From: Terebella lapidaria
Taxonomy: Eukaryota; Annelida; Polychaeta; Terebellida; Terebellidae
DNA length: 64,000 nucleotides
NCBI GenBank assembly: GCA_949152475.1
Contig: OX424559.1
Location: forward strand, 35,509,119-35,573,118
Reading direction: 5' to 3'
Position numbers and translations under genes: made by a program. Below, in pieces: positions 3,001 to 64,000 of this stretch. The notes beneath the pieces are model-generated. The model did no database searches, was not told where the DNA came from, and worked only from the letters and a program-made list of their open reading frames with translations. Each line of letters opens with the position of its first letter. Within the stretch, counting starts at the first letter, position 1.

Positions 3001-3530
3001 CACACCAGCCCTTGGAGGAGTAGCAATAGCAGTAGCGTCCGTGTCCCACACCAGCCCTTGGAGGAGTAGCAATAGCAGTAGCGTCCGCCTGCTAGACCAG
3101 ACCTTGGGGAGTAGCAGTAGCAATAGCAGTAGCGTCCGCCTGCCAGACAAGACCTTGGAGTAGCAGTAGCAATAGCAGTAGCGTCCGCCTGACAGACCAG
3201 ACCTTGGAGTAGCAGTAGCAATAGCAGTAGCGTCCGTCTCCCACACCAGCCTTTGGAGGAGTAGCAATAGCAGTAGCAGTAGCGTCCGCCTGCCAGACAA
3301 GACCTTGGAGGAGTAGCAATAGCAATAGCAGTAGCGTCCGTCTCCCACACCAGCCCTTGGAGGAGTAGCAGTAGCAGTAGCGTCCGCCTGCCAGACCAGA
3401 CCTTGGAGTAGCAGTAGCAGTATCAGTAGCGTCCGTCTCCCAGACCAGACCTTGGAGGAGTAGCAGTAGCAATAGCAGTAGCGTCCCGGTCTCAGATCAA
3501 GCTGGGGAGTAGCAATAGCACGGGAATAGC
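1..3530. repeat. Hexamer-based minisatellite array
   Basis: The whole stretch is a tandem array of units of roughly 50-70 bp. Each unit has a run of GTAGCA/ATAGCA hexamers followed by a spacer of the form GTCC(A/G)CCT...AGACCAG...CTTGGAG. Spacer variants recur in partly regular order (CTCCAGTCCAGCCC, CTGACAGACCAGACC, CTCCCAGACCAGCCC, CTGCCAGACCAGGCC, CTGCCAAACAAGACC), which points to higher-order repeat structure. The array is cut by the window start and decays into unique sequence near 3500-3530. Units lack stops on the minus strand, so long ORFs appear in all three minus frames. They encode only leucine runs, YCYCYC and ATAIATP repeats and show no sign of being real proteins. Confidence 0.95.
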
Positions 3531-5846: not shown

Positions 5847-7093
5847 ACAATACTACACTACGGGTCTTTGGAAAATAGTCTACTCTATCTGCTACACTAC
5901 CAACACTCTGTTTAATACTACCTTGTACCTCGCGTACAGCCCTATTATCTGGGGACCTGACAATAGGGATCCCTAGTTTCCCTCCTCCTGAGAGGGGCCA
6001 ACGACTTGGGACGCACCACTCTCCTGTCCCGACCTGCTGCCTGCCGCCTGCTTGGGGGTGGCATAGTGCCCCCTGCCTTGACATCTATAGCATACAATGT
6101 CACCCACCTGCTGATTCCTTCTTCCGCGGCCTCGTCCCCGGAAGGGCTCTCGTCCTCTCTGGACTTGCATCACATGGGCTAATCTGTCCACGAGAGTGTC
6201 CAGGTCCCATGTTGTCGATGCTGCTGTGGGCGCGGGCATCGTCGCGGGCATCTGCGTGGGCACCTGCGCGGGCGTCGTCGCGGGCACAGACGTCGGCTGG
6301 GTGATGGTCTGCCTAACTTGGATTGTCTCTGGTAGCAAGCTGTCCACTATCTGTGTTTGTCGGGCCGAGGAGATCGCTCCTTCTAATGTGGCTGGGTTTG
6401 TCAGCAACACTGGTCGCTTAATATCGGCACATAGGCCATGTACGAATGTTCGGAGAGTCTCTTGTTCCGTGTATCCGAGCTGTTGGCATGCTCTTTGAAT
6501 CACGAAGACGTATTCATCTACTGCCTCTCCCGGCTTCTGTTTCCTGTTGGCCAGTTCTTGTGAAGCGACCCACTGTTGTCCAGCTGGCCTGAACGCCTGG
6601 AGGAAAGGTCTCTCAGGGCCCTCCATTTTCTCCTTGTCCCCTTCTGCTGACGCTCGTACCACAGATATGAGGGTCCCTTCAGTACAAGGGGGAACATGTC
6701 ACACATGGTGTCTTCCGCCCAACTGTGGGTGCGTGCGTGTAGTTGAAACTTCGATATCCATGTTCCCGCCTCATTCCTATCCAGCCCGTCAAACGTGTCT
6801 GGTAGTTTGTGTGACATTCTCGGAGCTGATTGTTGCGGCGGTGGTGGGGGCGGCATATACATACTGCTGGTTGCTGTTTGCTTCAGGGCTGCCTGTAATT
6901 GCTGGATTTGCTCCTGTAGTGCTTGATTGTCACTCACCAGCCTTTCTTTCCTCCGCCATGCTTCTGTGGCCTGCTGCTCCTCCTGTGAATGGAGTTGCTC
7001 CTCCTGTGAATGTAGTTGCAGCTGTCGTGACGTTCCTTCTGCTTTCTCTTGTTGTTCCTTTGTTTTTCCGTCGGGTGCTTGGGAAGCACCCAA
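5785..7093 (-). pseudogene. Gypsy gag, frameshifted
   Basis: The N-terminal part (7093-6518) has a Gln/Glu-rich coiled-coil stretch, a polyproline run, and the capsid-like segment with motifs DTFDG and WISKFQLHAR. The continuation (6662-5973) lies in another frame and carries the capsid C-terminal region (KPGEAVDEYVFVIQRACQQL). It ends in a zinc-knuckle-like CYRCQGRGHY whose last cysteine is missing in that frame. A further frame (6084-5785) continues the C-terminal tail. At least two frameshifts therefore separate the parts. Gag would form the particle that packages the element RNA; this copy cannot make it intact. Confidence 0.75.
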
Positions 7094-7253
7094 CTGTTCT
7101 TTAATCTTTAGATCTGTAGAGACTGCTTGCTCCTCTACCTTGCGCTCTGATGACTTTGAGCGAAGAATGCCATTATTGTTTCTGCTCCTTGTCTGCTTTT
7201 GGTGATTTCAACTGAATAATCCGGTCACTTAGTTACCCGGATTCTCCACCATA

Positions 7254-7542
7254 TGTTGTATAGCTGTGCTGTATAGCTGTGTATCTCTGTTTTTTGCTGT
7301 TGCTATACTTGTTGTGTTCCGTTGATTGGGGAATTTCACGCACAGAGAGAGAGCGAGACGGCAGCTTGATTTTGTTTATTACAACCTCCGCACCACAACT
7401 GCTTTAATTCACAAGATACATGCTTTTTTAAAAAATATTCTCATATCCTAGCTAACCCAATCAAATATTTTCCCTACCCTGTGCCTTCCTCTAGCCCCGC
7501 CCCCACACCGTCCTGTGTTCAGACAGACCGGTGGTCACGACA
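7254..7542 (-). repeat. 5' LTR of the truncated Gypsy element
   Basis: On the minus strand this segment begins TGTCGTGACC and ends ATACAACA, the TG...CA ends expected of an LTR. It contains an AATAAA polyadenylation signal (complement at 7375-7380). Directly after it on the minus strand is TATGGTGGAGAATCCGGG, a TGG-starting candidate primer-binding site (about 7235-7252). No second copy of this LTR was seen in the window, so boundaries rest on end motifs and spacing to gag only. Confidence 0.6.
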
Positions 7543-8879
7543 TCTAAATTGCCACGTTGATAAAGCCTACAAACATTGTAATCATAAAAGGGCTTTTCTG
7601 GCCACGCTGTTCATGGCCAACATCCACAAAGAGTATAGATAAGGCATGTTAGGACTATTCTGGTATACACACATTTCCGTTCCTATCTACTTGGGTTCAC
7701 ATAATTTATCAAAAGAATACATGACAGTTAAAACTACATACATGGCAGATTCAATATACAATTCCGTCTTTAACGCAAACTTAAAATTACATACCGGATA
7801 AATTAAAATAAATTCAAACTATAATTGTACCATTAATATAACACTTCAACATTCCTTCAAACACTCAACATTCGATCGAACACTGATCCAGCAATGAACA
7901 GATTCCTTCTCTTGTATCCATTAAAGCAAAGTTATGCTCTTGGTTTCGACTATTGCATTTTCAGCAACTCAAGTCACATCATAGTCTAGTCATTCCGAGG
8001 TATGCGTGTGATATAGCCTTGTAAGAGTTTATTGACTTGAGGCAGTTTGGTGGGGAGTGGAAATATATTCTGCCAAATCTCCACTCCGCATCTCCAGCAC
8101 GGCTTCTGCCAAAATACAACTGACCATTTTGCCCAATGACAGTGGAAATTGCAGTCTCCCTGAAAATGAACTACAGAAGTTTGACAGCTGTTAGCATGAC
8201 TTTGCTGGGGACTTTGAGACAAATCTTGTCGCCAGCATACAAATTCTTCATCTGAAAATCGTAGACTTCGTTGGTGAATAACATCCAGGGTGTTGCTAAC
8301 TCAGTCGCACATTCATCGTAGAGTTTTTCCCGGCATTATCTGCTAAAACCTTGGGTTCCTGTTTTGACAGGTTATTGTCCAGATTTGGCAGGGAGATAGC
8401 AGATAAGACAAGTACACTGTGAACATATTTGGCCGCAGGCTATCAAGGACATGAGACACTGGTGATATGCCAGCAAGGACGGCTTGAGTACGCTATGTGA
8501 AGTCATTTATTGTGAACAAAAAGTGTCTCCTTCCTCCTCGCAGTTGGTGGACTACACTAGCAGAGAACTGGGAACAAATGTCTCAGTTACGTGGCATTCC
8601 CTTGAGTAAACATTGTTCTATGCACAACTCCAAGTCAGGTCAGATAATTTGTCATTCAAGTCGCGATGACGTCCGTAGAATTTCGACATAGATCACGATG
8701 TGTGTCTAGTTGATGTAAATGCGATGAACAAACTCTAGCCCTAGAAAGATATACGCCCTCCATCACCAGCACAGGCTGATTTTCTGACTTCTTATGCTTC
8801 AGCAAGCATAGTTGTCATCTGTGATCCAAGTACCTGGTTTTTCTACCTACCAAATCATCATTGGCTATTTCCTGCAACC
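7543..8879. other. Noncoding, flank between two Gypsy elements
   Basis: AT-rich sequence beyond the LTR. No gag homolog for the downstream plus-strand element was recognised here. The last part, about 8800-8879, may hold the decayed N-terminal half of its protease, since the following frame starts within a protease-like segment. Confidence 0.5.
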
Positions 8880-10151
8880 GTGAACATTCTTCCATACAAA
8901 GATTTCAGGAAACTCCGATACAAACCTCGGCTGATGCAAAAAACAGTACAACAAACTGGCTATAATGGGGACAACATCCCGTGCATGGGCACCTGCCGAG
9001 CAACAATCGAATACAAAGGCATCAACCATTATGTTAGGTTTGCCGTGGTTGATACATTGAACTGTGCAAGCCTCGGATTGAATGCATGCAACAAGCTCAG
9101 TCTTGTGCAACGAGTCTGGGAAGTAACTAACAATCAGCCTCAAAATGCCATCTTTTCCATGTACAACAATGTTTTTGATGGTATTGGTTGTCTCCCAGTC
9201 GAGCATCGTATACAGCTTAAACCAGATGCATGTCCAGTGATCCATGCAGCACGCAAGGTTCCAGTCGCCATGCGGGAACGACTGCACACAGAACTGAATC
9301 GTCTCATTGAGCTGGGTGTGATAAGCAAAGTTGATGAGCTCACAGATTGGGTACACTCACTTATGATCGTGGAGAAAAAGTCAGGAGCATTGAGACTTTG
9401 TCTTGATCCCAAGGAGCTGAATAAGAACATCAAACGGGAACACTTCCATCTCCCTACCAAGGCGGAGATAACAAAAGAGATGTCAGGGGCTGCCTTCTTC
9501 ACAAAACTAGATGCATATTCTGGATTCTATCAAATCCCACTCGACGTGCCCAGCTCTAGGTTGTGCACTTTCAACACCCTATATGGGCGTAACTGCTTCA
9601 AGCGTCTACCTTTTGGTAATTGTTCGGCCCCAGAAGTCTTCCATAAGACAGTGTCACAAATCTTGAGTGGTGTTCCTGGCACTCAAGTGTTCATTGATGA
9701 CATCCTGGTATGGGGCCGGAGCAAAGAGGAGCACGACCAACGTCTTCATGAAGTCATGAGCAGAATCCGTACATCGGGGCTTCGAATTAACAGAGAAAGA
9801 TGTCTGTTTTGTGTGCCAGAACTAGTATATCTCGGTGATAAGCTGTCCAAGCATGGACTTCACCCTGATGATAGCAAAGTAGAGGCAGTTAGAAGCACGC
9901 TTGAATGCTCATCTAAAACTGATCTACAAAGTGGCCTGGGATTGCTGACTTATATGGGTAGATTCATTCCAAATTTATCCCTGAGCACATCAAACATGCA
10001 CAAATTTCTGGAAAACGACAGTCAGTGGGACTGGAATGCAGAGTGTGCACAGGAATGGCGTCTTGTCAAACGAGCATTGACATCAGAGCCAGTTCTGAAG
10101 TTCCAACCTGCCGGTAAACCTTTTCAGGTGACTCCTCAAAAGATGGCTTAG
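8880..10151 (+). pseudogene. Gypsy protease end and reverse transcriptase
   Basis: This 423-residue frame begins inside the protease tail (NILPYKDFRKL, later VVDTLNCASLGLNAC) and has no credible start of its own. RT follows, with VEKKSGALRLCLDPKELN (fingers), FTKLDAYSGFYQIPLD (motif A, catalytic Asp), LPFGNCSAPEVF (motif B) and FIDDILVWG (motif C, catalytic DD). The thumb/connection region with YLGDKLSKHGLHPD and GLLTYMGRFIPNL follows. All RT catalytic aspartates are present. The frame ends at a shift at the start of RNase H. Confidence 0.88.
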
Positions 10152-10862
10152 GTGCAGCACTGTTGCAGCTGCACAATGATAAGTGGCACCCCATATCATA
10201 TGCGTCTCGCAGCATGACCAAAGCCGAGGTACGCTATGTGCAAATTGAAAAAGGGAACACCGGGAATTGTCTATGGCTGTGAGAAGTTCCACGACTACAT
10301 TTATGGAAGGCAAATACTCATAGAAACCGACCACAAACCAGTCATCTCCATAAACTCACGAAATCTGTTGGAGTGTCCGCCACGTATCCAGCGTCTGTTG
10401 CTCAGGCTGCAGCAATATCGTTTCAAGTTGATCTTCACCCCTGGCAAGCACTTGATCTTGGCTGACTTGCTCTCACGTGTTTATGACCGCCGGTCTCCAT
10501 CTCAAAGCTCCACAGAGCAGGATGTGAAAGTGCATGTTGACATGGTGATTAAATCCCTGCCAATTTCTGAGCAAACATGGACAGAAATTGCAAGTGAGAC
10601 ACAAGCTGATCCAGTACTGCAGGAGGTTCCGACGTACATTGATAACGGGTGGACTCAGGTAGGAGCACAAACTTGTCACCTGTACCACGACTTCCAAGAT
10701 GAGCTCACTGTTGTCAATGGAGTTATCCTCAAAGGTCGACGTATCGTTGTGCCAACACCAATGAGACCACAGACCACGGTCACATGGGAATCGAAAAAAC
10801 TAGGCATGCAGCCAGAGACTCACCCAATTGGCCCAAAACGAATGATGACATCTCTTATATGA
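10130..10862 (+). pseudogene. Gypsy RNase H and integrase zinc-binding region
   Basis: The beginning of RNase H ([13 protein letters not shown]) lies in a frame shifted from the RT frame. After another shift near 10225 it continues as [19 protein letters not shown] and FTPGKHLILADLLSR, the canonical Gypsy RNase H ending. The frame then runs through a spacer towards integrase. The integrase zinc motif is split; CSACQRHQSSQPKEPL appears in a third frame at 10862-10920. No intact polyprotein can be read. Confidence 0.8.
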
Positions 10863-11556
10863 TCGGCAGATGCTCAGCCTGCCAGCGTCATCAGAGTAGT
10901 CAACCAAAGGAGCCACTCATGTCACACGCTGTGCCAGTGGGACCTTGGCAAAAGATTGGCACTGATCTTTCCTAACTTCAGGGCAAAACTAATCTAGTTG
11001 TCATGGATTATTTCATCCAGAATTGGCATTGCTTACACAGACCACATCGTCGGCAGTCATCACACATCTGCATTCTATCTTCTCTCGACATGGCATTCTA
11101 CAAACTGTTGTTTCAGATAATGGTCCCCAGTTTTCAGGACACAAATTTCGACGGTTTGCTGAGACCTATGGATTCTCTCACGTTACTTCTAGCCCACACT
11201 ACCCTCAGTCGAATGGGTTAGCCGAGAAAGGAGTTAACATCGTGAAAACACTTCTCAAGAAAGCTGCAGAATCAAGCAGTGATCCATATCTGGCAATTCT
11301 AGCTTATCAATCTGCACCTTTGTCATGCGGCAGATCACCAGCTGAACTCCTAATGGGCCGCAAGCTTAGAAACCGGATTCCGTCTGCAGCTCATGTCATG
11401 AGCAAGTTGAGTGGGAACACATCTTTTCCTGTAATCTCGACATCTGGGGCTTCTGGAGACAACCGAGCTGACAAAGCTGTACAGCCACTGAAACCAAATA
11501 AACTACTTGTAAAACACTATTCCAATACACGTTTCTTACCGATGTATCATCTTTGA
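10784..11556 (+). pseudogene. Gypsy integrase
   Basis: The second half of the zinc-binding domain (ARDSPNWPKTNDDI...CSACQRH) and the start of the core (PWQKIGTDLS, with the first catalytic Asp) are read at 10784-10975, ending at a stop. The core resumes at 11023-11556 with SDNGPQFSGHKF (second Asp) and PHYPQSNGLAEKGV (the catalytic Glu region) and then SPAELLMGRKLRNRIP. The middle of the core is disrupted. This would be the DNA-joining enzyme of the element; the copy is dead. Confidence 0.82.
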
Positions 11557-13220: not shown

Positions 13221-15460
13221 TTAAAAGTAGGCATCTATGATGTCTGTACATTTCTTGACATCTAGCCACGTTTTTATTTTACTTTTGAACAGGTATATGT
13301 CCAACATTTCGATTGTGGGATCAATGTCATTCCATAATTTTGATCCGATATATGCCATACTGTGATAGCCAAACCGTTTGGTGTTACATCTAGGTAAGAT
13401 ATAGGTATTGGTATCTCGGAGTAAGTATGATGAAACATTCGGTTTAAATAGATTACCTAGATATGTTGAGCACGTTCCTTGATTAATCTTGAGCATTTGG
13501 ATAGAGAGTGTTTTAGTTGCATTTTTGAAAACATCATATGTGTTGTTTTGTCTTAAAAGCGTTTCGTAATCGCATGAGTAATTGTTGTACACCATCCTCA
13601 ATGCCCTTTCATTAACCCCTTCAATGCGGGGCTCAGTGAAATCGCGTGTGCGGAGGAAAAAAGCAACATAGGACATATTATCAGATATTATGAATATTTC
13701 AACAAAATAATTGGAATATTATTGTAAAACTAATAAGTATTTGATACTAAACGGTATTCTCGTCAATACCACTGCAAAGTCAATGAAATTTGGTTGCTAC
13801 GTAGCACATTACTATGGCAACGATGACATTTTAACAAAAAGCATACATTTTACACAATACTAAATTTTTCACATCAGAGACGAACTTATGTATCTATTCC
13901 TATCGACCTGATCAGATATATTATGTAAAAGTTAACCTGAAGAGTTCACAGTTGCTGAATAAAAGTTTGCCATCATACTTGTCCAAATGAACAGCATATT
14001 AATATTGTAAATCGCATCTATTGCCATGTCTGCATACACATCAAAATTGCCATGCAGAAATAATACCTGCCGATTCTCATCTCTTCTGTAGAAGCAAATC
14101 TAAAAACTATATAACTGTAAAATGATTGACCAAATATTGCTCCTTGCATTATCTTAAGTGCGCATGCATGCTTGCAACATTTCTGTGAATTATCATAACG
14201 TTCTTGACACTCAACACTGACTTATCACATATTGTTCAGAGCACCAGACCTTCTCGGGCTATACGCAGTGAAGGGGTTAAGTTTGCTCAGTTTATGCAGG
14301 ATGGTGCGTCCAGTAAACATCCAGATTGTACAGCAGTAATTTATATTGGACGCTATGTACGAGTTGTAGATAGTTTTTCGACTGTGTACATCAATGTCGT
14401 TCTTTATTGTAATGATGGCATTTATATGTTTAGATACTTTTGAGCAAATGGAGTCAATACACTTATTAAAATTAAGTTTATTATCAATCTCTATTCCTAA
14501 AATAGTAATGGACTCCGAACCATAAATCTTAGTTCCATTGAGTTAAATATGATCATCTTGACACGTGTTATCTTTTCCAAGAAACAAGACTTGGAACTTT
14601 GCCGGGTTAGCATTCATTAAATTTTCTTCAAGTTATATTACGGCTTTTCTGGCGTTTGATTGGACCGTCTCTTTTGTGGTAGATAAGTCTTTGTCCATAT
14701 ATGCAATAGTATTGTCGTCCGCATAATTGTATATAGTTGAATTTATATTTAGGAGTAGGAAATCGTTCAGAAAAATATTGAATAGGAGCGGACCTAGTAT
14801 ACTTCCTTGGGGAAATCCTTTAATAGCGGACACCCATGCACTTTCATGGCAGCCCATTTTTACGCGCTGTTTTCTATTTAGTAGATATGATTTTATAAGT
14901 TCGCATGTCTTTATGCGTAGTGATTATCAAGTGCTTTCTGCCAGTTTTCGCTCATCTTAGACATCAGATCTTTGCAGCCATGCCTTTGTCTAAATCCAGA
15001 CATAAGAGGTTGAAATATACCGGTCATATATTCAGAGATTTGATCATTAATCACTCTTTCATATAGTTTTGATAAAACAGGTAATAGGTTAATAGACCTG
15101 TAATTTTTTTTGTTGAGTGAATCTTATTCCTTGAATATGGGACTAATATTTGACTTTTTTAGATCATCAAGGAATACGTTTTGTGAAATGCACTTGTTAA
15201 TAAGACAAGTAATGATCTCAGCAATATCATTTTTGAGACTTTTTATAAACGTAGCCGGAATGCCATCATATCCGCTTGTTTTTCTTATTCTTCAGTTTAG
15301 AGATGGCTTGTTTCGTATCGATAATACTAATTGGTCTGAGCGAGAATGAGTTCAGACTCAAACCAAGTGTGCCTATTTTGGCAACTGAACTATGATCCTT
15401 ATATTTAGCCAATAGTGAGTGCAATGGTTCATCACTAATATCATTTTCACCTATTTTTTA
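13221..15460 (-). pseudogene. LINE reverse transcriptase, several frames
   Basis: Recognisable minus-strand RT blocks are: SGYDGIPATFIKSL (about 15260), KNYRSINLLPVLSKLYERV (about 15050-15110), SGFRQRHGC (about 14990), GFPQGSILGPLLFNIFLND (about 14750-14815) and NYADDNTIAYM with the catalytic DD (about 14700-14730). The C-terminal region with NERALRMVYNNYSCDYETLL lies at about 13550-13611. Stops and shifts separate them, and a MITE sits directly before NERALR. Downstream parts such as KLWNDIDP close the ORF at 13221. The copy is inactive. Confidence 0.8.
13612..14280. mobile_element. piggyBac-type MITE, copy 1, in the LINE
   Basis: The element starts TTAACCCCTTCAATGCGGGG and ends CGCAGTGAAGGGGTTAA. 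It therefore has terminal inverted repeats beginning CCCCTTCA(C/A)TGC just inside a TTAA duplication, as in piggyBac-superfamily elements. It has no transposase ORF. It sits inside the LINE RT C-terminal coding region. The TTAA falls exactly where the LINE would read K-L-N-E-R, so excision with one TTAA kept gives an uninterrupted frame. Related copies are at 39629-40359 and 30590-30853. Confidence 0.85.
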
Positions 15461-17940: not shown

Positions 17941-18180
17941 TAGCTACTCTAGACCAGAAGGAACTAGTTCACAACATCTCAAAGAAAAAGCTGCTCAACA
18001 AAAATGTAAGTAACCAATCATGTTGATAAAGTTCAAGAAATCGTATTCCTTCACTTATTGTATTACCAAACATGTAGGCGATCAGTTATGGGAAATACCA
18101 CTTATCAACATTGGGATATACATAGTTGTGCAATTCAAAATGTTATGTTCCTAACGAAGAGTTGACGAACACATTGTCCC

Positions 18181-19009
18181 CGATCTTCAGGTTTTAATTC
18201 ATAGATGTGTAAATTACGCAAGAAAGTGGCGTTTTAACTTTGGCATCAAAAAAACTAAATGTATGGTAGTTGGAAATAATTTATTCAAGGAGGAACCACA
18301 TTGGAACCTTGGATGTCATGTTATAGATAATGTTTCATCTGTAGATATTCTAGGTGTAACATTTAATAGTAATTGTAAATTTAACTCTCATGTTAGTAAT
18401 CGCATTCAAAAATGTTACAGAGCCTTACATTCCTTGCGAGACTGTGGATTTTCCTACCCAGGTCTAGATTGTGATGTGAAGTCATACATGTGGAAATCAT
18501 TGTGCTTACCGGTATTAACATATGGATCTGAGTCTATTCATGTTGGTGTAAACGAAATTAAGAAAATGGAAACATGTCAGGGTAATATTATTAAACAAAG
18601 CCTAGGCCTAAGTAAGTCAGCCAGATCAACTAGTTTATTACATGCCTTGGGTATAAAGAAAATTACAGATGTCATATCACATAATGTGTTATCATTGTGG
18701 AATAGATTGTTTAGCGTAAAGTCACCAACTAGAACTCTCTGCTCATATTTTTATTCCTTATACCTTCAAGGTGTTGTCAATCCTGGCACTTTACTGAGTA
18801 ATGTTGTTCTGTCTGGGCACTCACCTTCAGAGCGTGCTCTCCGTAGAACCAAATATATCCCACATCATGATGTAAACATTGGATTAGTGGACTCATTACG
18901 TACTGTCCTTCTCAGTGAAAACTTTATGAAACCCTACTCGGAAGAATACCACCTTGCAAAACTTTTAACCAAGTCATATTGTTGTGAATGTTGCACCAAA
19001 GTGCCTTAG
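18181..19009 (+). mobile_element. LINE RT C-terminal fragment, 5' truncated
   Basis: From 18181 the plus strand reads LQVLIHRCVNYARKWRFNF and, in the same frame, KKTKCMVVGNN and DILGVTFNSNCKFNSHV. It continues with SYMWKSLCLPVLTYGSE and MCAxxx-free downstream sequence to a stop at 19009. These are the segments after the catalytic YADD block of non-LTR retrotransposon reverse transcriptases. The catalytic block is missing, so this is a 5'-truncated insertion, as is common for LINEs. Within the 248-codon stretch from 18263 the frame is intact. Its sequence differs from the LINE at 13221-16791. It is followed at once by a ~130-bp tandem repeat that may be its 3' tail or a separate element. Confidence 0.8.
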
Positions 19010-54494: not shown

Positions 54495-54975
54495 GACACA
54501 GATAGCAGAGCAATCGTTAATACATGTGTTAATGCAAGTTGACAAATGTAAGTTGACAAATCACAGAACTACCCGGACGTTCAGGATCATCTGATCAGCA
54601 TTATCGCTGAAACAGATGACCTAAGCAGTACCTACCAGTTCTGGCAGATAACCAGTGCTACACTCTATTGGACCTGCTTCACAGAATAGAGAATCAAGTT
54701 GTCATTGGTGCGCTACATGTAAGTTTTGAGACTTGTGCATGCATCTACAATGCCGATCACATGGAGACTGCGAAGTCAGCACTCGCTCATTTGTCAAATT
54801 TCAGCCGGAACCAACAGAATCAATGGGAAATGCATCATGACAGACTCCTAATTGCTCTGCTGTCACTTTGGCTCGTTCAACATTTTCAGCATTGAGGACT
54901 CCTGAGCACCACCGACTTTCCATACGACAATCGTAGTTGTCGCAGGGACCTCGAACAGATTGCAGGCGATGTTAT

Positions 54976-55240
54976 GGATGCTGAGTTCATGCAGCCCTGC
55001 AAGGTAATGAGCAATAGGACCTGTAAGTCACGTGCCGTCACGGTATGATTCTGTTGACCAACAAACATACACCTATTGTGTTATCTGAGTAATTTGAGAT
55101 CTGAATGAAGTATTACTCATATTAAAGAAAAGGTGTATACTGGATGTACGATTGTTGGTCACCAGAATCACACCGTGACGGCACGTGACTTACAGGTCCT
55201 ATTGCTCATTACTTCGCAGGGCTGCATGGCCTCAGCATCC
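54976..55240. repeat. 265-bp near-palindrome, ~90-bp arms
   Basis: The left arm starts GGATGCTGAG and continues CATGCAGCCCTGCAAGGTAA, TGAGCAATAGGACCTGTAAG, TCACGTGCCGTCACGGT. The right arm is its reverse complement and ends CTCAGCATCC at 55240. The central ~80 nt also holds CATACACCT/AGGTGTATA. Arms have only a few mismatches. A foldback element or inverted duplication. Confidence 0.9.
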
Positions 55241-56315
55241 AAATTCGTCTAAACGCGGAAATTATTAGCGTCCGTTTATTTAGATTTCGTTTTAGCATGT
55301 TTAGCTTCTGGTTTAATAACGAGCGTGTCATATGCCTGACCTGGATGAACTTCGACGTTTGACCCAAAGCATTATAACAATATTAGTATTTCATGCGTTT
55401 CACCATTTCGCAAATGCGGTCACTGTACCCTACAGCGAAACGGACCCTATTTTCGGACTCCGTTGGCAAACAAGTCTGACCAGTATCAGGCGCAAAATTT
55501 CAGGTCGACCTTCCTTATGTCCATCAATACTCCAAACTGTGCTTCGGTCGGCATTATGCAATTGAATCATATGTTGCTTTTGGATTAACATCCAGCGCCA
55601 CATGTCAACAGAATACACCAATTTTGGTCCAAACGCTATTGACTATCAAGGTGATATTATTATAACAAATGCTCACATAGGTCATAATGACATTCCATGT
55701 GTACTTATTTCTTTCCTTGGATATTGGACCATTTTTTAGGTTACCAGACCTTTGCTCCGATAACATATTGCCGTGGCGTTCCGTCTGTCGTCCGTCTTTG
55801 TCCATCGTCCGTATTAGAAATTGAAGCTCAAGACGTCTGCAACTTCAATGGGTGCCTGCTCGCGTCATGGTTCTCCCAGAGGTAAAAAGCAGTGGAGTGG
55901 AAAACCACCCCAATCGTCTCCACTCCGACTATTCAAGAGCGACTTACCACGCTGGCAGGCCAGGGTATCCAGACCGATGTCTCTGTTGATGTAGTGGACA
56001 CCCAAGCCATGATCAAGTGGTGATGTGACAGTTCACCCCCGGCAGTGGGGAAGATTGTCGAGGCTGGGCACCGAGAGTGGGTGTCTCAAACAATGGGTAC
56101 AGACCCCATACGGGCGAGTGTAAAACCATCAACACTGACTGTGAAAAGCAGCTATAACTGAATGGGACACCAGGCCCATTCACCACCATGCAGGAGAAAC
56201 TGCAAGCCAGTCTGTCACGGGCAGGACTTCCTGATACGAAGGTCCTGCCCCGAATGAAATAGAAGCTGCGTGTGGACGTTGAGGGCGCTCCTCAGCACCA
56301 CACAGATCCAGAGGC
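55241..56315. other. Noncoding or decayed coding left of the PLE locus
   Basis: GC-richer from 55880. One plus frame (about 55905-56020) is open but unrecognised, and stops break it into short pieces. Not part of the direct repeat that begins at 56316. Confidence 0.4.
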
Positions 56316-56684
56316 AGTAGTATCTAGGTCGGAGGCCCACTAACTCGCAGGGGGCGTGGCAGCACCTTGGCCTGATCATGGGGCCGACCCGGCCTCACTG
56401 GACACATTACTACCTGCGAGTAAGCATACTGGCCACCTCACGTGGGAGGCCATCGATCAGTGCCTAGTGTAGAGCCTGTGAGAAAGTGGGCGTGGTTCAG
56501 GCCTTTCGGATCACCATAGTGATGTCATGCACCTGCTCCACCCTCACGCTGAGGCACAGCAAGCCACCGACATCAGACACCTGGGCTCATCCACCTCAGT
56601 GGGCCAAGACTGCTCAACGCACAGGCTATGGATCTCCATAATGGAAAGTAGCTTGGTCCAGGCACGTCTGGATTTACGTGGGAT

Positions 56685-56936
56685 GTGTTCCGTGCGCTAG
56701 GGCGCGATCTACGCCAGGTGGAGTTTAAGCGTGAGGAGGTTAGGAGGTCCCTGGATGTCGAAAGGAATCTTCAAGTCACTGAACAGCGACAGTGGCAAGC
56801 CGACCGCGATGTTATGCAGAGGCAGATTATTGCCCCACAGAAGGAAGATGCCACAGAAGGAAGCTACCTTACCAATTTGCGTGCCCTGAGTAACCGGCAG
56901 ACTCACAAGGTCTACGAGCATGTCTTACAAGTCTAG
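56685..56936 (+). CDS. Small charged coiled-coil-like ORF, unrecognised
   Basis: 83 codons, very rich in Arg, Glu and Gln (RDLRQVEFKREEVRRSLDVE, then NLQVTEQRQWQADRDVMQRQ), likely helical. No family recognised. It is repeated identically at 63089-63340 in the other copy of the direct repeat. Flanking frames are also open in short pieces but broken by stops. This may be a remnant of a longer gag-like or structural protein, or chance. Confidence 0.25.
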   Translation: MFRALGRDLRQVEFKREEVRRSLDVERNLQVTEQRQWQADRDVMQRQIIAPQKEDATEGSYLTNLRALSNRQTHKVYEHVLQV

Positions 56937-57384
56937 AGCTCAAGACCCGAGAAACTGGGCGACTAACCTAATATAATATATTGTATGTCACTAATGCGTG
57001 CCAGTTTTGTTCACTGTTTTCATTCTGAGGATTTGATATAAAATCCGTCCTTCAGATTTCTCGTGTTTGTCAAGTTTGTTCACAGGCGTAAAATATTGCG
57101 GATTCGTGTACGTCGTACCACCTCACACACGAGATCAGAGCTAGGTCCAAAAGGACCTCAGATACTTTTTGATCATCAACGTTCTGCTACGCCTGGGGCG
57201 AATCTGGCTATCTAACAGCTTGATAGCAAGTTTCTCGGGCGAGTCCAAAACTTAGCCATAAAAAATTGAATACACAACGAGAGGGGTTTGAAACTATTCA
57301 ACTGAGAAAACCCCTACCATAACCCAAAATTCCTAAGATGGAAAAGTAGCGTGAACTATTCTATATCTGGCCTAAAAAGGGGTT

Positions 57385-57524
57385 AATGTAAGTATCAATC
57401 TAATACCACCAATAAATTAAGATTTTAAGTTGATGCTAAAACGCTACATTTCTATTCCTATATGCACGTTTGCTATTGTCATCATTAAAATCTTATTCGG
57501 TGGTAATGGGTTGATATTTACATT
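57385..57524. repeat. 140-bp palindromic mini-element
   Basis: AATGTAAGTATCAATCTAAT... and its inverted end ...GGTGGTAATGGGTTGATATT-TACATT face each other. Both arms (~55 bp) match the end of the 359-bp repeat family, so this is an inverted pair of family ends. The same element is at 63789-63928 in the other direct-repeat copy. Confidence 0.85.
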
Positions 57525-57793
57525 CAATGTAATTTGGGGAAGTCAATCAATATCCTTATTGCACTCTAGTTCTTATTGTACTGGCCCTTATTCGTTCATA
57601 TGGCGTCATTGGTTGTGATTTTACGTTATTTTTGTGTTGCCAAAAGTTATTGTAGATATATAATAACCCAAATTCTAAGCAAATACTGCATGATACTGGT
57701 TTTTATTTCGCACGGGGCTTTTCACGGAGCACGAGTTTACATGTGGAACACTGCAAAAACTTGTTGATTTGATAGCAAGATAAATTGAAACCA

Positions 57794-58821: not shown

Positions 58822-61134
58822 TTATTTAAGTTTGCTTCTGACTAAAAGTTCTTTAAGATTTTGATGCTTCTTGTAAGCTGTTGCTATTTTAATATCACCA
58901 TCAGTATTTTTGTTGAGTTGTTTCATATGCTTTTTAACAATTTGGGCTGAAAGAGTACCTGTTTTTGAGAAGGGTACTATATACACCATGTCGAATTTAT
59001 TTTTACTTTTGTTCAAAGGGTCATACTTTGTAAATTTTTGAACGTTGAGGCCATGAGGTTCGAAAGTGCCTAGAGTATCAATCCAACAATATTCCCTTTC
59101 AAGTCGCCATTGTTTGTTTAAAAGTTCATCACCAAGATCGGAAACCTGTTCAATTGGTAAAAGAGAAAAACATTCAATGGAAAATTCAGTTTTGCTGTGA
59201 AATTTAGATAGATGACTGTATAATGCATTTTCCTCATTGCAGCTAGTTATTGCAGCACGGTGACGATTGTTTCTGAATTTGAGTGATTTACCGGTTTCAC
59301 CTACATATTGTTTTTCGCAAAGCTTACAAGTGTATAGATAAATTATATTTTCTGAGTTGCAATCCAAAGCTGAGTTGATTGAGTAGGTCTGTTCAAAAAC
59401 TGATCCCGAGAAATTTTGACAATTTGGAACTAAATGACATGTCTGACATTGTCTAGAATTACAAGGTTTTGAGCCAGACGAGCTGGAAGTGGGCAATTGA
59501 AAATCAGCACCTAGTCTTTCCTCACTGTTCAAAATTCTCAATGTTTCATTCTTGATTTTGCGAAGCCAACGTTTTGAATAGTTACGTTTCGAAAGTGCCT
59601 TGAATAATATTTGACAAGCTGATTCAACATCATCTGGATATGAGCAAATTTGGAAAAATCGAAAAACTTGGGACTTGATTAGTCCTTTATAAGTGTGTTT
59701 TGGATGAAAAGAGAGCTTATGCAACAAGTGATGAGTATCCGTTGGCTTGAAGAAAACTTTTGCTTCTAATGTGTTTTCTTTGCTCCTGAACAAAGTAGTA
59801 TCCAAAAAATTAACTGAATCAGTACTAATTTCAGCTTTGAAGTTGATTGATGCCCTATGAGAATTGAAAATTTCGAGAAACTGGTGAAATTTGGAAATGC
59901 CATGTGGCCAAATGAGGAAAATGTCATCTAAATACCTATAATAGCAATCTGGTTTGAATGGACACTTTTGTAAAGCTTGCTTTTCAAATTCAGCCATATA
60001 AATATCTGCATAATGAGGTGCATATTTCTGACCCATGGCTGTGCCTGAAACTTGTAGGAATGTCTTACCGTCAAATTCAAAGTCATTACATTTAAGTGAA
60101 ATTTCCAATAATTCTATTATACCTTTGAATAGTTCATTGTTTGCCAAAGTCGGGAATGCATTTTTAATTGCTTGGATACCTTCTTCATGATTTATATTAG
60201 TATACATACTTTCAACATCTAAAGTGATTAGTAAAGAATTTGGATCTAGTTCAAGCCCTCTAACTTTATCTAAAAAGTCATACGTGTTTTTTATATATGA
60301 CGGATGCTTATTTGCTTGATCTTTTATATATGAATCAATATACATAGCTACTTTTTCAGATTCACTGCTGCAGTCCGAAACAATTGGGCGCCCTGGAGGC
60401 ATTACATTTGGAATTGGCCAGGAGTCTTTGGGTTTATGAATTTTAGGTAGCATATAAAATCTTCTTTGACGAGGGCGTTCTGGTGGTAAAAGAAATTGGA
60501 ATACTTTTTCAGAAAGGCATCCAGAATTGCGTAATCCTTTTAAAATTTTTGTTATTTTTGCTGAATTTTCTAGGTAAAGAGGAGTGTCAATTTCTCTGTA
60601 ATGAGCTGGATTGTATAATTGACGAAAGCCTTCATTAATATAATTTTGCCTATCCATAATTACGACTGCACTACCTTTATCTGCTTTTTTAATTACCAAG
60701 TCTACGTTATTTTGTAAATTCTTTATAGTTTTATATTCCATTTTTGTTAGGTTTTTGGTTTCTGGTTGAATTTTCAAGTTTTCAATTTCCTTAGATATTG
60801 CCGAAATGCAATCTAAAACGGGCTTGTCAATCATGGAACTCGGTGGAGTCCAGGTAGATTTTGGAGTGAATTTTGATCTATTTGTGAATGAATTTGGACG
60901 GTGAGAAAAATAATTTTGAAGTTTGAGTTTTCTACCAAAATCTTGCACAGCTTGTTTAATTGGATCCAATGTTATTTTGGGTGTGGGAACAAATGTCAAA
61001 CCACGATTTAGAAGAGCGATTTGTGTGTCCGAAAGTGTAAATTTGGAAAGGTTTACAACATTATTAGTCGTACTGGAGTTCGGTGGACTCTCAGAATGAT
61101 TTAGTTTAAATGACTGAGCCAGAATTTCAACATT
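58822..61134 (-). CDS. PLE ORF2: reverse transcriptase with GIY-YIG endonuclease
   Basis: The frame is open from 61134, has no ATG before the RT, and its N-terminus (LSDTQIALLNRGLTFVPTPK) is the conserved PLE N-terminal motif. Numbered from the TTG at 60999 (725 residues): MLPKIHKP (183-190), GRPIVSD (203-209), LITLDVESMYTNI (motif A, Asp261), GTAMGQKYAP (motif B, 319-328), YLDDIF (motif C, 356-361) and FLDT (399-402). The zinc-type CNSRQCQTC follows (513-521), then GIY-YIG with YLYTC (554-558), YVGETG (565-570), a conserved NRHR block (578-581) and the Glu-containing WRLEREYCW. All catalytic residues are present. It copies element RNA by target-primed reverse transcription after nicking. It is probably made as a -1 frameshift fusion to ORF1. 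Confidence 0.92.
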   Translation of the reverse strand, partial: NVEILAQSFKLNHSESPPNSSTTNNVVNLSKFTLSDTQIALLNRGLTFVPTPKITLDPIKQAVQDFGRKLKLQNYFSHRPNSFTNRSKFTPKSTWTPPSSMIDKPVLDCISAISKEIENLKIQPETKNLTKMEYKTIKNLQNNVDLVIKKADKGSAVVIMDRQNYINEGFRQLYNPAHYREIDTPLYLENSAKITKILKGLRNSGCLSEKVFQFLLPPERPRQRRFYMLPKIHKPKDSWPIPNVMPPGRPIVSDCSSESEKVAMYIDSYIKDQANKHPSYIKNTYDFLDKVRGLELDPNSLLITLDVESMYTNINHEEGIQAIKNAFPTLANNELFKGIIELLEISLKCNDFEFDGKTFLQVSGTAMGQKYAPHYADIYMAEFEKQALQKCPFKPDCYYRYLDDIFLIWPHGISKFHQFLEIFNSHRASINFKAEISTDSVNFLDTTLFRSKENTLEAKVFFKPTDTHHLLHKLSFHPKHTYKGLIKSQVFRFFQICSYPDDVESACQILFKALSKRNYSKRWLRKIKNETLRILNSEERLGADFQLPTSSSSGSKPCNSRQCQTCHLVPNCQNFSGSVFEQTYSINSALDCNSENIIYLYTCKLCEKQYVGETGKSLKFRNNRHRAAITSCNEENALYSHLSKFHSKTEFSIECFSLLPIEQVSDLGDELLNKQWRLEREYCWIDTLGTFEPHGLNVQKFTKYDPLNKSKNKFDMVYIVPFSKTGTLSAQIVKKHMKQLNKNTDGDIKIATAYKKHQNLKELLVRSKLK
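61073..61110 (-). promoter_or_regulatory. Predicted -1 ribosomal frameshift signal
   Basis: On the minus strand ORF1 ends CAT TTA AAC TAA. T-TTA-AAC is the canonical X-XXY-YYZ heptamer in the ORF1 frame (61110-61104), one codon before the stop. Shifting -1 enters the ORF2 frame (TTT AAA CTA AAT), which is then open to 58822. Nine nt downstream is a 7-bp stem with one bulged A (CTGAGAGT / ACTCCAG, loop CCACCGA; 61094-61073). ORF2 has no nearby ATG. Termination-reinitiation is the main alternative. Confidence 0.65.
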
Positions 61135-62783
61135 TCATTGGCCGTTTGTTCAGTCCAATGAATGTTATCTGTCTGTGTAGAAAACTTGATTGGATCCAAC
61201 TGTTTAACAACTGTGAGATTGCTGAAACGTGAACTCATGTCATCCAAAGCCCTGTTAATCATATCCAAGTTGCGTTTCTCTACAGACGGAAGATTGTCTG
61301 AGTAGTTAATTTTTGGAATGAGAATTTTGGAGTGGGGGAAGATTCGGAAAGCACTGCTGAGCATATTCCTCAGTTCTGGAATTGAAGTAACACTTGGTTT
61401 GGAGCTTCGATTGTTCAGGCCTACACTTAAGATTAAGTTTTGGGGGGCATCAAATGATTTTTTACAGGCCGTGAACATCATTCTTAGATGGTTGAACAAC
61501 GCTCCAGGATAAGACACAACTTGGATATCACTGACAGGGGATTTGGTGATGCGAGAAAGGTTAGAAGAGCCGAGGATGACAGTGGAGGAGGTTAGTTTAG
61601 GAAGGGCCCAAAGAGTTTTGGGTCCTCTGATAGTGGAAGGAGAGACATGGAAAGTGGTGTTAGGAGAGTTTTTAGGAGAGACAAAGCGAGTGCGTTTGCC
61701 TTTGGGTAGAGAGGTGGGTGAGAGTTCAGGAGAAGAAGGAGAGCGCGGACGCCGTTTGGGCGTGGCACTAAGGCGGTTATCAGGAGAAGAGCGAGAGAGA
61801 GGTGGCCAATCATCAGATGATGATAGACAAGGAGGGTTAGAGAGGGTATCAAGGAGTTGGAAGCGGTTAGAAGTGGACACAGAGGGAGGGGTGTTATTTG
61901 AAGATGGAGGTGAAGAGCGAGAGGGTTTAGGATTGTTAGTAGGAGAGTTGGCACGTTTTAGGTCCATTAGGAGGCGGCCAAAGAAGTTAGAGCCTTGACC
62001 ATGACGGTTAACACCCCAGTGGCTGTCAGGAACTGGATGGACAATGTGACACCCTTCAGGAAGACCCATCAGAGTGTCACGGAACAATTTGCAAGAATTA
62101 AACTTAACTTGAAGAAGTTGACGCATGATTCCATTTTTACTTTTATGCCAGAATGGGGACAGGCTAGGAATTTCACTAGCCAAACGTTTGGCCACTCCTG
62201 CATGGGGAGCCCTGAGGATCCGATTGGCTAGGTGTTGACAGTCATGGTACCGGGCTTTGTGATACTGATAGATGTGCTCAAGGCTAGGGAATCTCATACC
62301 ACGATAGGATATATTACATGGGAAGAAATTACTAAGTGGGTGTTTGTGACCTTTTACCTCGCAAGTCTGAGGTTTTGATTGAGAGTTAGAATTTGGAATA
62401 GGGGAATTTGGAAGAGTAGAGGTTTTGAATTTCTGGATGGTGGAAGCCTGAAGTTTTTTGCCGAAATGAGATTTAGCCTGCTGAATGACGAGAGCTACCG
62501 AATTTGCAATGTCCGAATCTGATAAACCTAAAGAGGAAATGTGGGCCAAAAGGTTTTGAATTGAGCTCTCATAGTGTTCCACCAAATGTTTGGTCACGTT
62601 TTGTACCCAATTTTGATTAATTTTGGAGATTTTTTGTTTGATTAGGGGACCAGAACAAGCAGGTTTAATGAAGTCATCCAGGTGTTGTTGTTTTTTACTG
62701 AAAGCCCTGGTGACTTGGTAGTAGTATCTAGGTCGGAGGCCCACTACCTCGCAGGGGGCGTGGCAGCACCTTGGCCTGATCAT
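61101..62783 (-). CDS. PLE ORF1: NADAR (YbiA-like) plus SGNH hydrolase protein
   Basis: 560 residues. Residues 1-22 are encoded in the flanking direct repeat, and no other Met precedes the first domain, so the true start is uncertain. Residues ~145-277 form a NADAR domain: HPLSNFFPCNISYRGMRFPS, then LEHIYQYHKA with the catalytic-type Glu169, and near the end DSHWGVNRHGQGSNFFGRLL. The NADAR family includes N-glycosidases acting on ADP-ribose or riboflavin-pathway compounds. A Ser/Pro-rich, basic linker (~280-390, with PKRRPR and KGKRTRF) follows. Residues ~400-558 are SGNH-hydrolase-like: VILGSSNLSRI (nucleophile Ser), SYPGA, SVGLNN, and DNIHWT (DxxH). The ORF ends with TTTAAAC directly before the stop, where ORF2 takes over in the -1 frame. 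What NADAR does for the element is unknown; processing ADP-ribose or NAD-derived marks on nucleic acid or host defence factors is a guess. Confidence 0.85.
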   Translation of the reverse strand: MIRPRCCHAPCEVVGLRPRYYYQVTRAFSKKQQHLDDFIKPACSGPLIKQKISKINQNWVQNVTKHLVEHYESSIQNLLAHISSLGLSDSDIANSVALVIQQAKSHFGKKLQASTIQKFKTSTLPNSPIPNSNSQSKPQTCEVKGHKHPLSNFFPCNISYRGMRFPSLEHIYQYHKARYHDCQHLANRILRAPHAGVAKRLASEIPSLSPFWHKSKNGIMRQLLQVKFNSCKLFRDTLMGLPEGCHIVHPVPDSHWGVNRHGQGSNFFGRLLMDLKRANSPTNNPKPSRSSPPSSNNTPPSVSTSNRFQLLDTLSNPPCLSSSDDWPPLSRSSPDNRLSATPKRRPRSPSSPELSPTSLPKGKRTRFVSPKNSPNTTFHVSPSTIRGPKTLWALPKLTSSTVILGSSNLSRITKSPVSDIQVVSYPGALFNHLRMMFTACKKSFDAPQNLILSVGLNNRSSKPSVTSIPELRNMLSSAFRIFPHSKILIPKINYSDNLPSVEKRNLDMINRALDDMSSRFSNLTVVKQLDPIKFSTQTDNIHWTEQTANEMLKFWLSHLN

Positions 62784-64000
62784 GGGGCCGACCCGGCCTC
62801 ACTGGACACATTACTACCTGCGAGTAAGCATACTGGCCACCTCACGCGGGAGGCCATCGATCAGTGCCTAGTGTAGAGCCTGTGAGAAAGTGGGCGTGGT
62901 TCAGGCCTTTCGGATCACCATAGTGATGTCATGCACCTGCTCCACCCTCACGCTGAGGCACAGCAAGCCACCGACATCAGACACCTGGGCTCATCCACCT
63001 CAGTGGGCCAAGACTGCTCAACGCACAGGCTATGGATCTCCATAATGGAAAGTAGCTTGGTCCAGGCACGTCTGGATTTACGTGGGATGTGTTCCGTGCG
63101 CTAGGGCGCGATCTACGCCAGGTGGAGTTTAAGCGTGAGGAGGTTAGGAGGTCCCTGGATGTCGAAAGGAATCTTCAAGTCACTGAACAGCGACAGTGGC
63201 AAGCCGACCGCGATGTTATGCAGAGGCAGATTATTGCCCCACAGAAGGAAGATGCCACAGAAGGAAGCTACCTTACCAATTTGCGTGCCCTGAGTAACCG
63301 GCAGACTCACAAGGTCTACGAGCATGTCTTACAAGTCTAGAGCTCAAGACCCGAGAAACTGGGCGACTAACCTAATATAATATATTGTATGTCACTAATG
63401 CGTGCCAGTTTTGTTCACTGTTTTCATTCTGAGGATTTGATATAAAATCCGTCCTTCAGATTTCTCGTGTTTGTCAAGTTTGTTCACAGGCGTAAAATAT
63501 TGCGGATTCGTGTACGTCGTACCACCTCACACACGAGATCAGAGCTAGGTCCAAAAGGACCTCAGATACTTTTTGATCATCAACGTTCTGCTACGCCTGG
63601 GGCGAATCTGGCTATCTAACAGCTTGATAGCAAGTTTCTCGGGCGAGTCCAAAACTTAGCCATAAAAAATTGAATACACAACGAGAGGGGTTTGAAACTA
63701 TTCAACTGAGAAAACCCCTACCATAACCCAAAATTCCTAAGATGGAAAAGTAGCGTGAACTATTCTATATCTGGCCTAAAAAGGGGTTAATGTAAGTATC
63801 AATCTAATACCACCAATAAATTAAGATTTTAAGTTGATGCTAAAACGCTACATTTCTATTCCTATATGCACGTTTGCTATTGTCATCATTAAAATCTTAT
63901 TCGGTGGTAATGGGTTGATATTTACATTCAATGTAATTTGGGGAAGTCAATCAATATCCTTATTGCACTCTAGTTCTTATTGTACTGGCCCTTATTCGTT
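62720..64000. repeat. Long direct repeat, right copy (cut by window end)
   Basis: Pairs with 56316-57596. It contains the second copy of the charged ORF (63089-63340) and of the palindromic mini-element (63789-63928). Its left edge is a sharp junction with PLE sequence, where ORF1 reads through into the repeat. Confidence 0.95.
63089..63340 (+). CDS. Second copy of the small charged ORF
   Basis: Identical translation to the ORF at 56685-56936, as expected from the direct repeat. Function unknown; coding status doubtful. Confidence 0.25.
   Translation: MFRALGRDLRQVEFKREEVRRSLDVERNLQVTEQRQWQADRDVMQRQIIAPQKEDATEGSYLTNLRALSNRQTHKVYEHVLQV

Follow-up and report, generated by a model that had tools for sequence, protein, structure and literature searches.

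Introduction

In their compact form, Penelope-like elements (PLEs) were described in a 2019 review as having either a single ORF with a reverse transcriptase (RT) and an endonuclease, or two ORFs without an endonuclease (PMC6431247); this and the other published systems compared here are taken as described in the accessible portions of the cited papers. The Athena/Terminon PLEs of bdelloid rotifers, which are large, endonuclease-deficient and composed of many ORFs, combine a PLE-type RT with a GDSL/SGNH ORF, and the accessible portion of their description mentions no NADAR domain (PMC5408684). An SGNH domain in ORF1, ahead of the RT, is also found in the zebrafish LINE ZfL2-1 (PDB 4c1b), the esterase of which is likened to PAF-AH in its paper, too (PMC3905857). 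YbiA/NADAR domains have been reported in Gypsy elements of Ectocarpus and in ORF1 of Tx1 LINEs of Crassostrea gigas, where the accessible text mentions no SGNH fusion, frameshift or acid loss (PMC12477816). The catalytic acid of NADAR proteins, located on the last strand, is Glu in YbiA, Asp in DarT1-linked and His in phage representatives (PMC11543638, PMC11125620).

Here we analyze a 64,000-nucleotide stretch of the Terebella lapidaria genome (contig OX424559.1, positions 35,509,119 to 35,573,118; hereafter, the window) that contains a PLE-like element. Like compact PLEs, it carries an RT with GIY-YIG, but it does so with two ORFs and an endonuclease. It differs from ZfL2-1 in that a PLE-like RT with GIY-YIG takes the place of the LINE pol, in the insertion of a NADAR domain and in the variability of the Asp preceding the catalytic His. 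With the Gypsy and Tx1 elements, compared by description only, it shares a NADAR domain in a retrotransposon protein (within ORF1 in the case of Tx1), but these belong to other retroelement classes. Its NADAR has the same fold and ADP-ribose pocket residues as the DarT-associated and YbiA proteins, but carries V, S, T or A in its family members where these have Asp or Glu. In retroviruses and coronaviruses, -1 frameshifting occurs at a U UUA AAC heptamer located where the -1 frame overlaps the first, and the window element shares both heptamer and -1 overlap, albeit with weak downstream structure. Among the papers listed by literature searches, which covered mainly open-access work, none showed a PLE with a NADAR domain or a case of frameshifting in PLEs. 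The original prediction regarded a NADAR domain in an animal retroelement as not standard; since the Gypsy and Tx1 cases were already in print, the novelty lies instead in how the domains are combined, in the missing catalytic acid and in the frameshift site.

Layout of the element

The window contains two overlapping ORFs on the reverse strand (Table 1). The original prediction of a PLE with an ORF1 fusing NADAR and SGNH-like domains, followed on the same strand by an RT/GIY-YIG ORF, is borne out by the Pfam match and SGNH profile, by structure predictions recovering both folds and by an RT frame that matches RVT_1 (Pfam, 3.3e-11), contains a conserved GIY-YIG block and overlaps ORF1. The ORF1 extent proposed in that prediction (61101..62783) holds up to position 62717, the remainder (62718..62783) being chimeric and part of a direct repeat.

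Table 1. Positions of the element and its features within the window.
Feature	Position	Strand	Basis or remark
Penelope-like element ORF1, portion belonging to the element (residues 23-560 and stop codon in the window; 32-569 in P0001)	61101..62717	-	99% identity to P0001
Residues 1-22 of the window ORF, a chimeric start inside direct repeat, not ORF1	62718..62783	-	
N-terminal helical domain of ORF1, remaining part	62415..62714	-	L001 relative folded alone, pLDDT 91.8
NADAR domain of ORF1, Pfam extent	61953..62348	-	Pfam, fold and residue check
SGNH hydrolase-like domain of ORF1 (P0001 residues 396-569)	61104..61625	-	Fold, residues and profile
TTTAAAC heptamer in ORF1 frame (T TTA AAC), directly 5' of ORF1 stop TAA	61104..61110	-	
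Possible stem, weak (z -1.62), with 9 outer pairs, beginning 8 nt past the heptamer	61028..61095	-	
Open frame encoding RT/GIY-YIG, in the -1 register and overlapping ORF1 by 34 nt	58822..61134	-	
Reverse transcriptase core, RVT_1 extent, YLDD box	59836..60270	-	Pfam and alignment
GIY-YIG endonuclease region, below Pfam cutoff	59074..59346	-	Pfam and alignment
Second copy of the direct repeat (copy 2), 5' of ORF1 and reaching the window end	62717..64000	.	
First copy of the direct repeat (copy 1), 3' of RT; 99.77% identity between copies, which are spaced by 6404	56313..57596	.	

A PDB sequence search with the RT returned no match, and we take the RT to be that of a PLE from its GLTFVPTP and YLDD motifs and its position ahead of GIY-YIG. 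The latter region scores below the Pfam cutoff (0.0016), but its YVGET..R..H block and cysteines are conserved in a 21-row RT alignment chosen to include FKL rows, which is not to be read as a count, and the endonuclease lies C-terminally, as in endonuclease-bearing (EN+) PLEs. The GIY-YIG family (PF01541) is also precomputed for part of the best 120 of 2007 RT relatives. Overall, the original observation is partly confirmed and its interpretation partly supported; we read the element as a PLE of a two-ORF lineage.

ORF1 comprises an N-terminal helical domain, the NADAR domain, a Pro/Ser/Arg-rich linker and the C-terminal SGNH domain. A structure search with the helical domain gave no clear fold match, whether to capsid proteins or to RNA-binding folds already known. 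The NADAR domain is the best-conserved part of ORF1, with mean pairwise identities of 55.3% (P0001-P0007) and 44.8% (P0001-P0011), as compared to 46.7% and 39.8% for the SGNH domain and 47.7% and 36.0% for the N-terminal domain.

The NADAR domain

The central ORF1 domain matches both the NADAR superfamily profile (Pfam) and, in structure comparison, the YbiA fold. In an alignment of 12 rows, including two near-duplicate pairs (window/P0001 and P0010/P0011), residues E178, K185, W221 and W265 (P0001 numbering) are invariant. These are the equivalents of E43, K50, W89 and W133, which contact ADP-ribose in the P. nicotianae NADAR-ADPr structure (PMC11543638). Eleven of the 12 rows have K or R as the R93 equivalent, and 10 have D as the D130 equivalent. 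The equivalent of the catalytic E125 (position 257) is instead V, S, T or A in every row, and the alignment to YbiA and 8bau has no gap at this position. There is likewise no acid in any row at position 255, corresponding to the location of the catalytic Asp of the E. coli C7 NADAR, two residues before the sequence-aligned Glu (PMC11543638). His258 is invariant, and position 259, two residues after the lost acid, is D in 4/12 rows.

In the C7 protein, A and N substitutions of D171, the structural counterpart of E125, lost efficient activity (PMC11543638). The same work reports that in vitro activity was little affected when the E43-type Glu was replaced by Ala. Because of this minor effect and of the Asp259 seen in four rows, residues alone do not settle NADAR activity. 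The NCBIfam riboflavin N-glycosidase model (TIGR02464) scores 62.5 bits, below its 73.7-bit cutoff. We read the domain as having probably retained its ligand pocket, whereas its chemistry has been lost or altered: a pocket kept without the catalytic acid most likely binds ADP-ribose, or an ADP-ribosylated partner, rather than supporting hydrolysis by the known route. Both catalytic signatures had originally been considered intact; this does not hold for NADAR, and the suggested removal of ADP-ribose by the element is for this reason not our first reading.

Alternatively, the domain could be an active glycohydrolase that strips ADP-ribose from element RNA, cDNA or target DNA to counter host ADP-ribosylation, with another residue, such as the invariant His or, in some rows, Asp259, assuming the role of the acid. 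Its good conservation is compatible with this explanation, as are reports that NADARs reverse guanine ADP-ribosylation and the proposal that in eukaryotic RNA viruses they act against host ADP-ribosylation (PMC11543638, PMC11125620, PMC9503650), but the replacement of the D171/E125 residue in all 12 rows and the subthreshold riboflavin N-glycosidase score make it rather unlikely. It is also unlikely that NADAR is a captured fold serving only a structural purpose, such as RNP packing or protein contacts, without an ADP-ribose ligand. Loss of the acid and the existence of family ORF1s lacking NADAR (2/13 homologs, as well as loci L001 and L002) would fit such a role, but the four ADP-ribose contacts are invariant in a domain averaging 44.8% identity (P0001-P0011), which argues against it.

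The SGNH domain

The C-terminal ORF1 domain has an SGNH/GDSL fold in which the catalytic S, G and H are kept in all 14 aligned rows and N in 13, with D found three residues before the catalytic His in 9/14. A profile built from these rows matches the ZfL2-1 ORF1 esterase (4.7e-8, chain residues 5-99 of 171), so that the PLE domain is probably related to the ORF1 esterase of LINEs. On a 16-row SGNH tree, with 7 of 13 inner branches left open, the NADAR label requires two changes.

The ORF1-RT junction

The 3' end of ORF1 reads CAT TTA AAC TAA, and the RT frame, which overlaps it by 34 nt in the -1 register, contains no ATG ahead of its NLS and GLTFVPTP motifs. T TTA AAC is a classical slippery heptamer, and its placement suggests that ORF1 is probably expressed as a fusion with the RT through a putative ribosomal -1 frameshift, a site that the original prediction missed. 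Of the three two-ORF loci examined at the DNA level, two (the window and L002) have a 0-frame heptamer of the X XXY YYZ type inside the -1 overlap; in L002, the same in-frame TTTAAAC precedes an ORF1 stop located four codons further. In the third locus (L001:1085-1096), the place of the heptamer is occupied by TTTATGTTAG and the RT ATG overlaps the ORF1 stop, pointing to re-initiation rather than slippage at L001.

In the -1 frame the heptamer reads FK. Among the best 120 RT relatives, 34 include 18 or more residues ahead of the NLS, and 24 of these contain FK[L/R]; the other 86, which start later or lack the reference motifs, were left out of the count. Some of the 10 relatives without FK[L/R] seem to begin past the site, and others present GKL, KKL or IKL. 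The motif persists in RTs down to ~42% identity. For two ORF1/RT pairs (P0004/P0020 and P0007/P0025), an ORF1 ending in xLN-stop and an RT starting with FKL would force TTTAAAC, as reasoned from the proteins alone. The heptamer is not enriched window-wide (13 found versus 16.6 expected), and the naive chance of finding it in the overlap is ~0.001 (~11 in-frame places in 34 nt, 4 to the 7th power). Stimulatory structures for -1 frameshifting lie about 5-9 nt past the heptamer; stems are predicted at such distances in the window (at 8 nt, z -1.62) and in L002 (at 6 nt, z -1.15), but these are weak, as is the structure in L001 (z -0.25).

The RT might instead be made by re-initiation, internal initiation or splicing, TTTAAAC being a by-product of a conserved Leu-Asn ORF1 end. 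The stop-start overlap at the same point in L001 and the weak downstream structure speak for this explanation. We nonetheless deem it improbable, given that L002 keeps TTTAAAC despite its later ORF1 stop, that FK[L/R] is kept across such diverged RTs, that the heptamer has so low a chance expectation and that the window RT frame provides no ATG ahead of its first motifs.

Recurrence of ORF1 in other elements

Of 13 ORF1 homologs, 11 (P0001-P0011) carry NADAR, whereas P0012 and P0013 lack it; a Pfam scan likewise identified none in these two. Scoring of 7991 candidates yielded 2007 RT homologs at E<=1e-20, of which the best 120 were listed. Within these 120, three of the 13 ORF1 homologs could be tied to a PLE-like RT through contigs identical in size and source (4805, 5375 and 14721). 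That the other ten lack such a tie does not prove absence, because 2007 RTs passed and only the best 120 were used. When the ORF1 alignment was used to search proteins, all 11 rows recovered were homologs already known, and viral contigs searched with the ORF1 and RT alignments contained no relatives.

Four PLE-like loci (L001-L004) come from bacterial records, namely an Enterovibrio MAG, an Epulopiscium single-cell genome, a Bathymodiolus symbiont and a Saccharibacteria MAG, and look like eukaryotic contamination. In L001 and L002, ORF1 consists of the helical domain and SGNH, without NADAR, and overlaps the RT; the N-terminal half of the L001 ORF1 sits at the opposite end of its contig. Inspection by eye revealed no such ORF1 on the 3.5-3.6 kb contigs of L003 and L004.

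We inferred an RT tree of 64 rows, comprising the window, 60 of the 61 sequences P0014-P0074 (the short P0074 was dropped) and L001-L003, and leaving out P0075-P0133, with a quick method and SH-aLRT support in place of bootstrap. The four rows tied to a NADAR-bearing ORF1 (window, P0018, P0020 and P0025) fall in one 12-row clade (SH-aLRT 100), in which they are the only rows of known ORF1 type, and L001 and L002 lie outside it. Because the NADAR/SGNH ORF1 recurs in other elements, it is not a lone host gene, the outcome that would have undone the original prediction. That ORF1 belongs to the host, or is an unrelated frame placed by chance beside a PLE, as the chimeric ORF start in the window copy might suggest, is highly improbable and already largely contradicted by its out-of-frame overlap with the RT, the three contigs apparently common to ORF1 and RT, the NADAR-less ORF1s overlapping RT in L001 and L002 and the single clade of NADAR-linked RTs.

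The 5' end and the flanking repeat

Sequence comparison indicates that the window copy is 5'-truncated. It lacks the first ORF1 helix, present in the P0001 model, and the N-terminal stretch (about ..Q[C/M].HH..) common to P0001, P0002, P0003, P0006, P0008 and P0010-P0013; P0004, P0005, P0007 and P0009, in their predicted form, also lack all or part of this stretch. The first 22 residues of the window ORF are encoded by copy 2 of a direct repeat of at least 1284 bp, with 3 mismatches between copies, that encloses the PLE. The repeat carries a MITE-like inverted pair (~57385-57528) with kin elsewhere in the window. A direct repeat on both sides resembles the pLTR-plus-spacer form of Pen1_Av, in which pLTRs with captured DNA are described (PMC3846280). 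Given the MITE-like pair inside the repeat and its continuation up to the window end, a pLTR with captured DNA and a plain tandem duplication are equally likely.

Elsewhere, positions 1-3520 of the window form a GC-rich degenerate tandem array, the long open frames of which look spurious. Open frames at 5976-11553, 13224-13718 and 18155-19006 resemble, by eye, Gypsy gag/pol and LINE RT pieces, and a 97-nt inverted repeat (54975-55241; 92% complementary, 73 nt between arms) has a MIR2606-like score below cutoff.

Discussion

The observed architecture, folds, residue losses, heptamer and -1 frame geometry, and recurrence of ORF1 are consistent with a gag-like two-ORF PLE in which a -1 frameshift generates the ORF1-RT fusion and NADAR binds ADP-ribose without hydrolyzing it by the known route, an interpretation that we favor by a modest degree. 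In this model, the ORF1 protein would be a gag-like accessory factor in which the helical domain may mediate self-association and RNP assembly, alongside NADAR, the linker and the SGNH esterase. A minority of ribosomes would slip by -1 at UUUAAAC, just 5' of the ORF1 stop, producing an ORF1-RT-GIY-YIG fusion that unfused ORF1 protein could recruit into the RNP, as gag recruits gag-pol. NADAR would most likely bind ADP-ribose or ADP-ribosylated DNA, RNA or protein.

A more speculative extension, which we put forward as possible but on balance doubtful, is that the PLE NADAR is a pseudo-hydrolase acting as an ADP-ribose reader, with its pocket retained in order to anchor the RNP where ADP-ribosylation occurs, for instance at DNA breaks marked by PARP, and so to guide target-primed insertion, and that -1 frameshifting at UUUAAAC yields the RT as part of a gag-pol-like fusion throughout a wide lineage of PLEs.

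If the favored model is correct, PLEs would join Gypsy and Tx1 as retroelement classes with a NADAR domain, and would provide an example of a NADAR with a ligand pocket but without the catalytic acid. The ORF1 esterases of LINEs and PLEs would be linked, and PLEs would possess a gag-pol-like expression strategy of which the literature searched holds no account.
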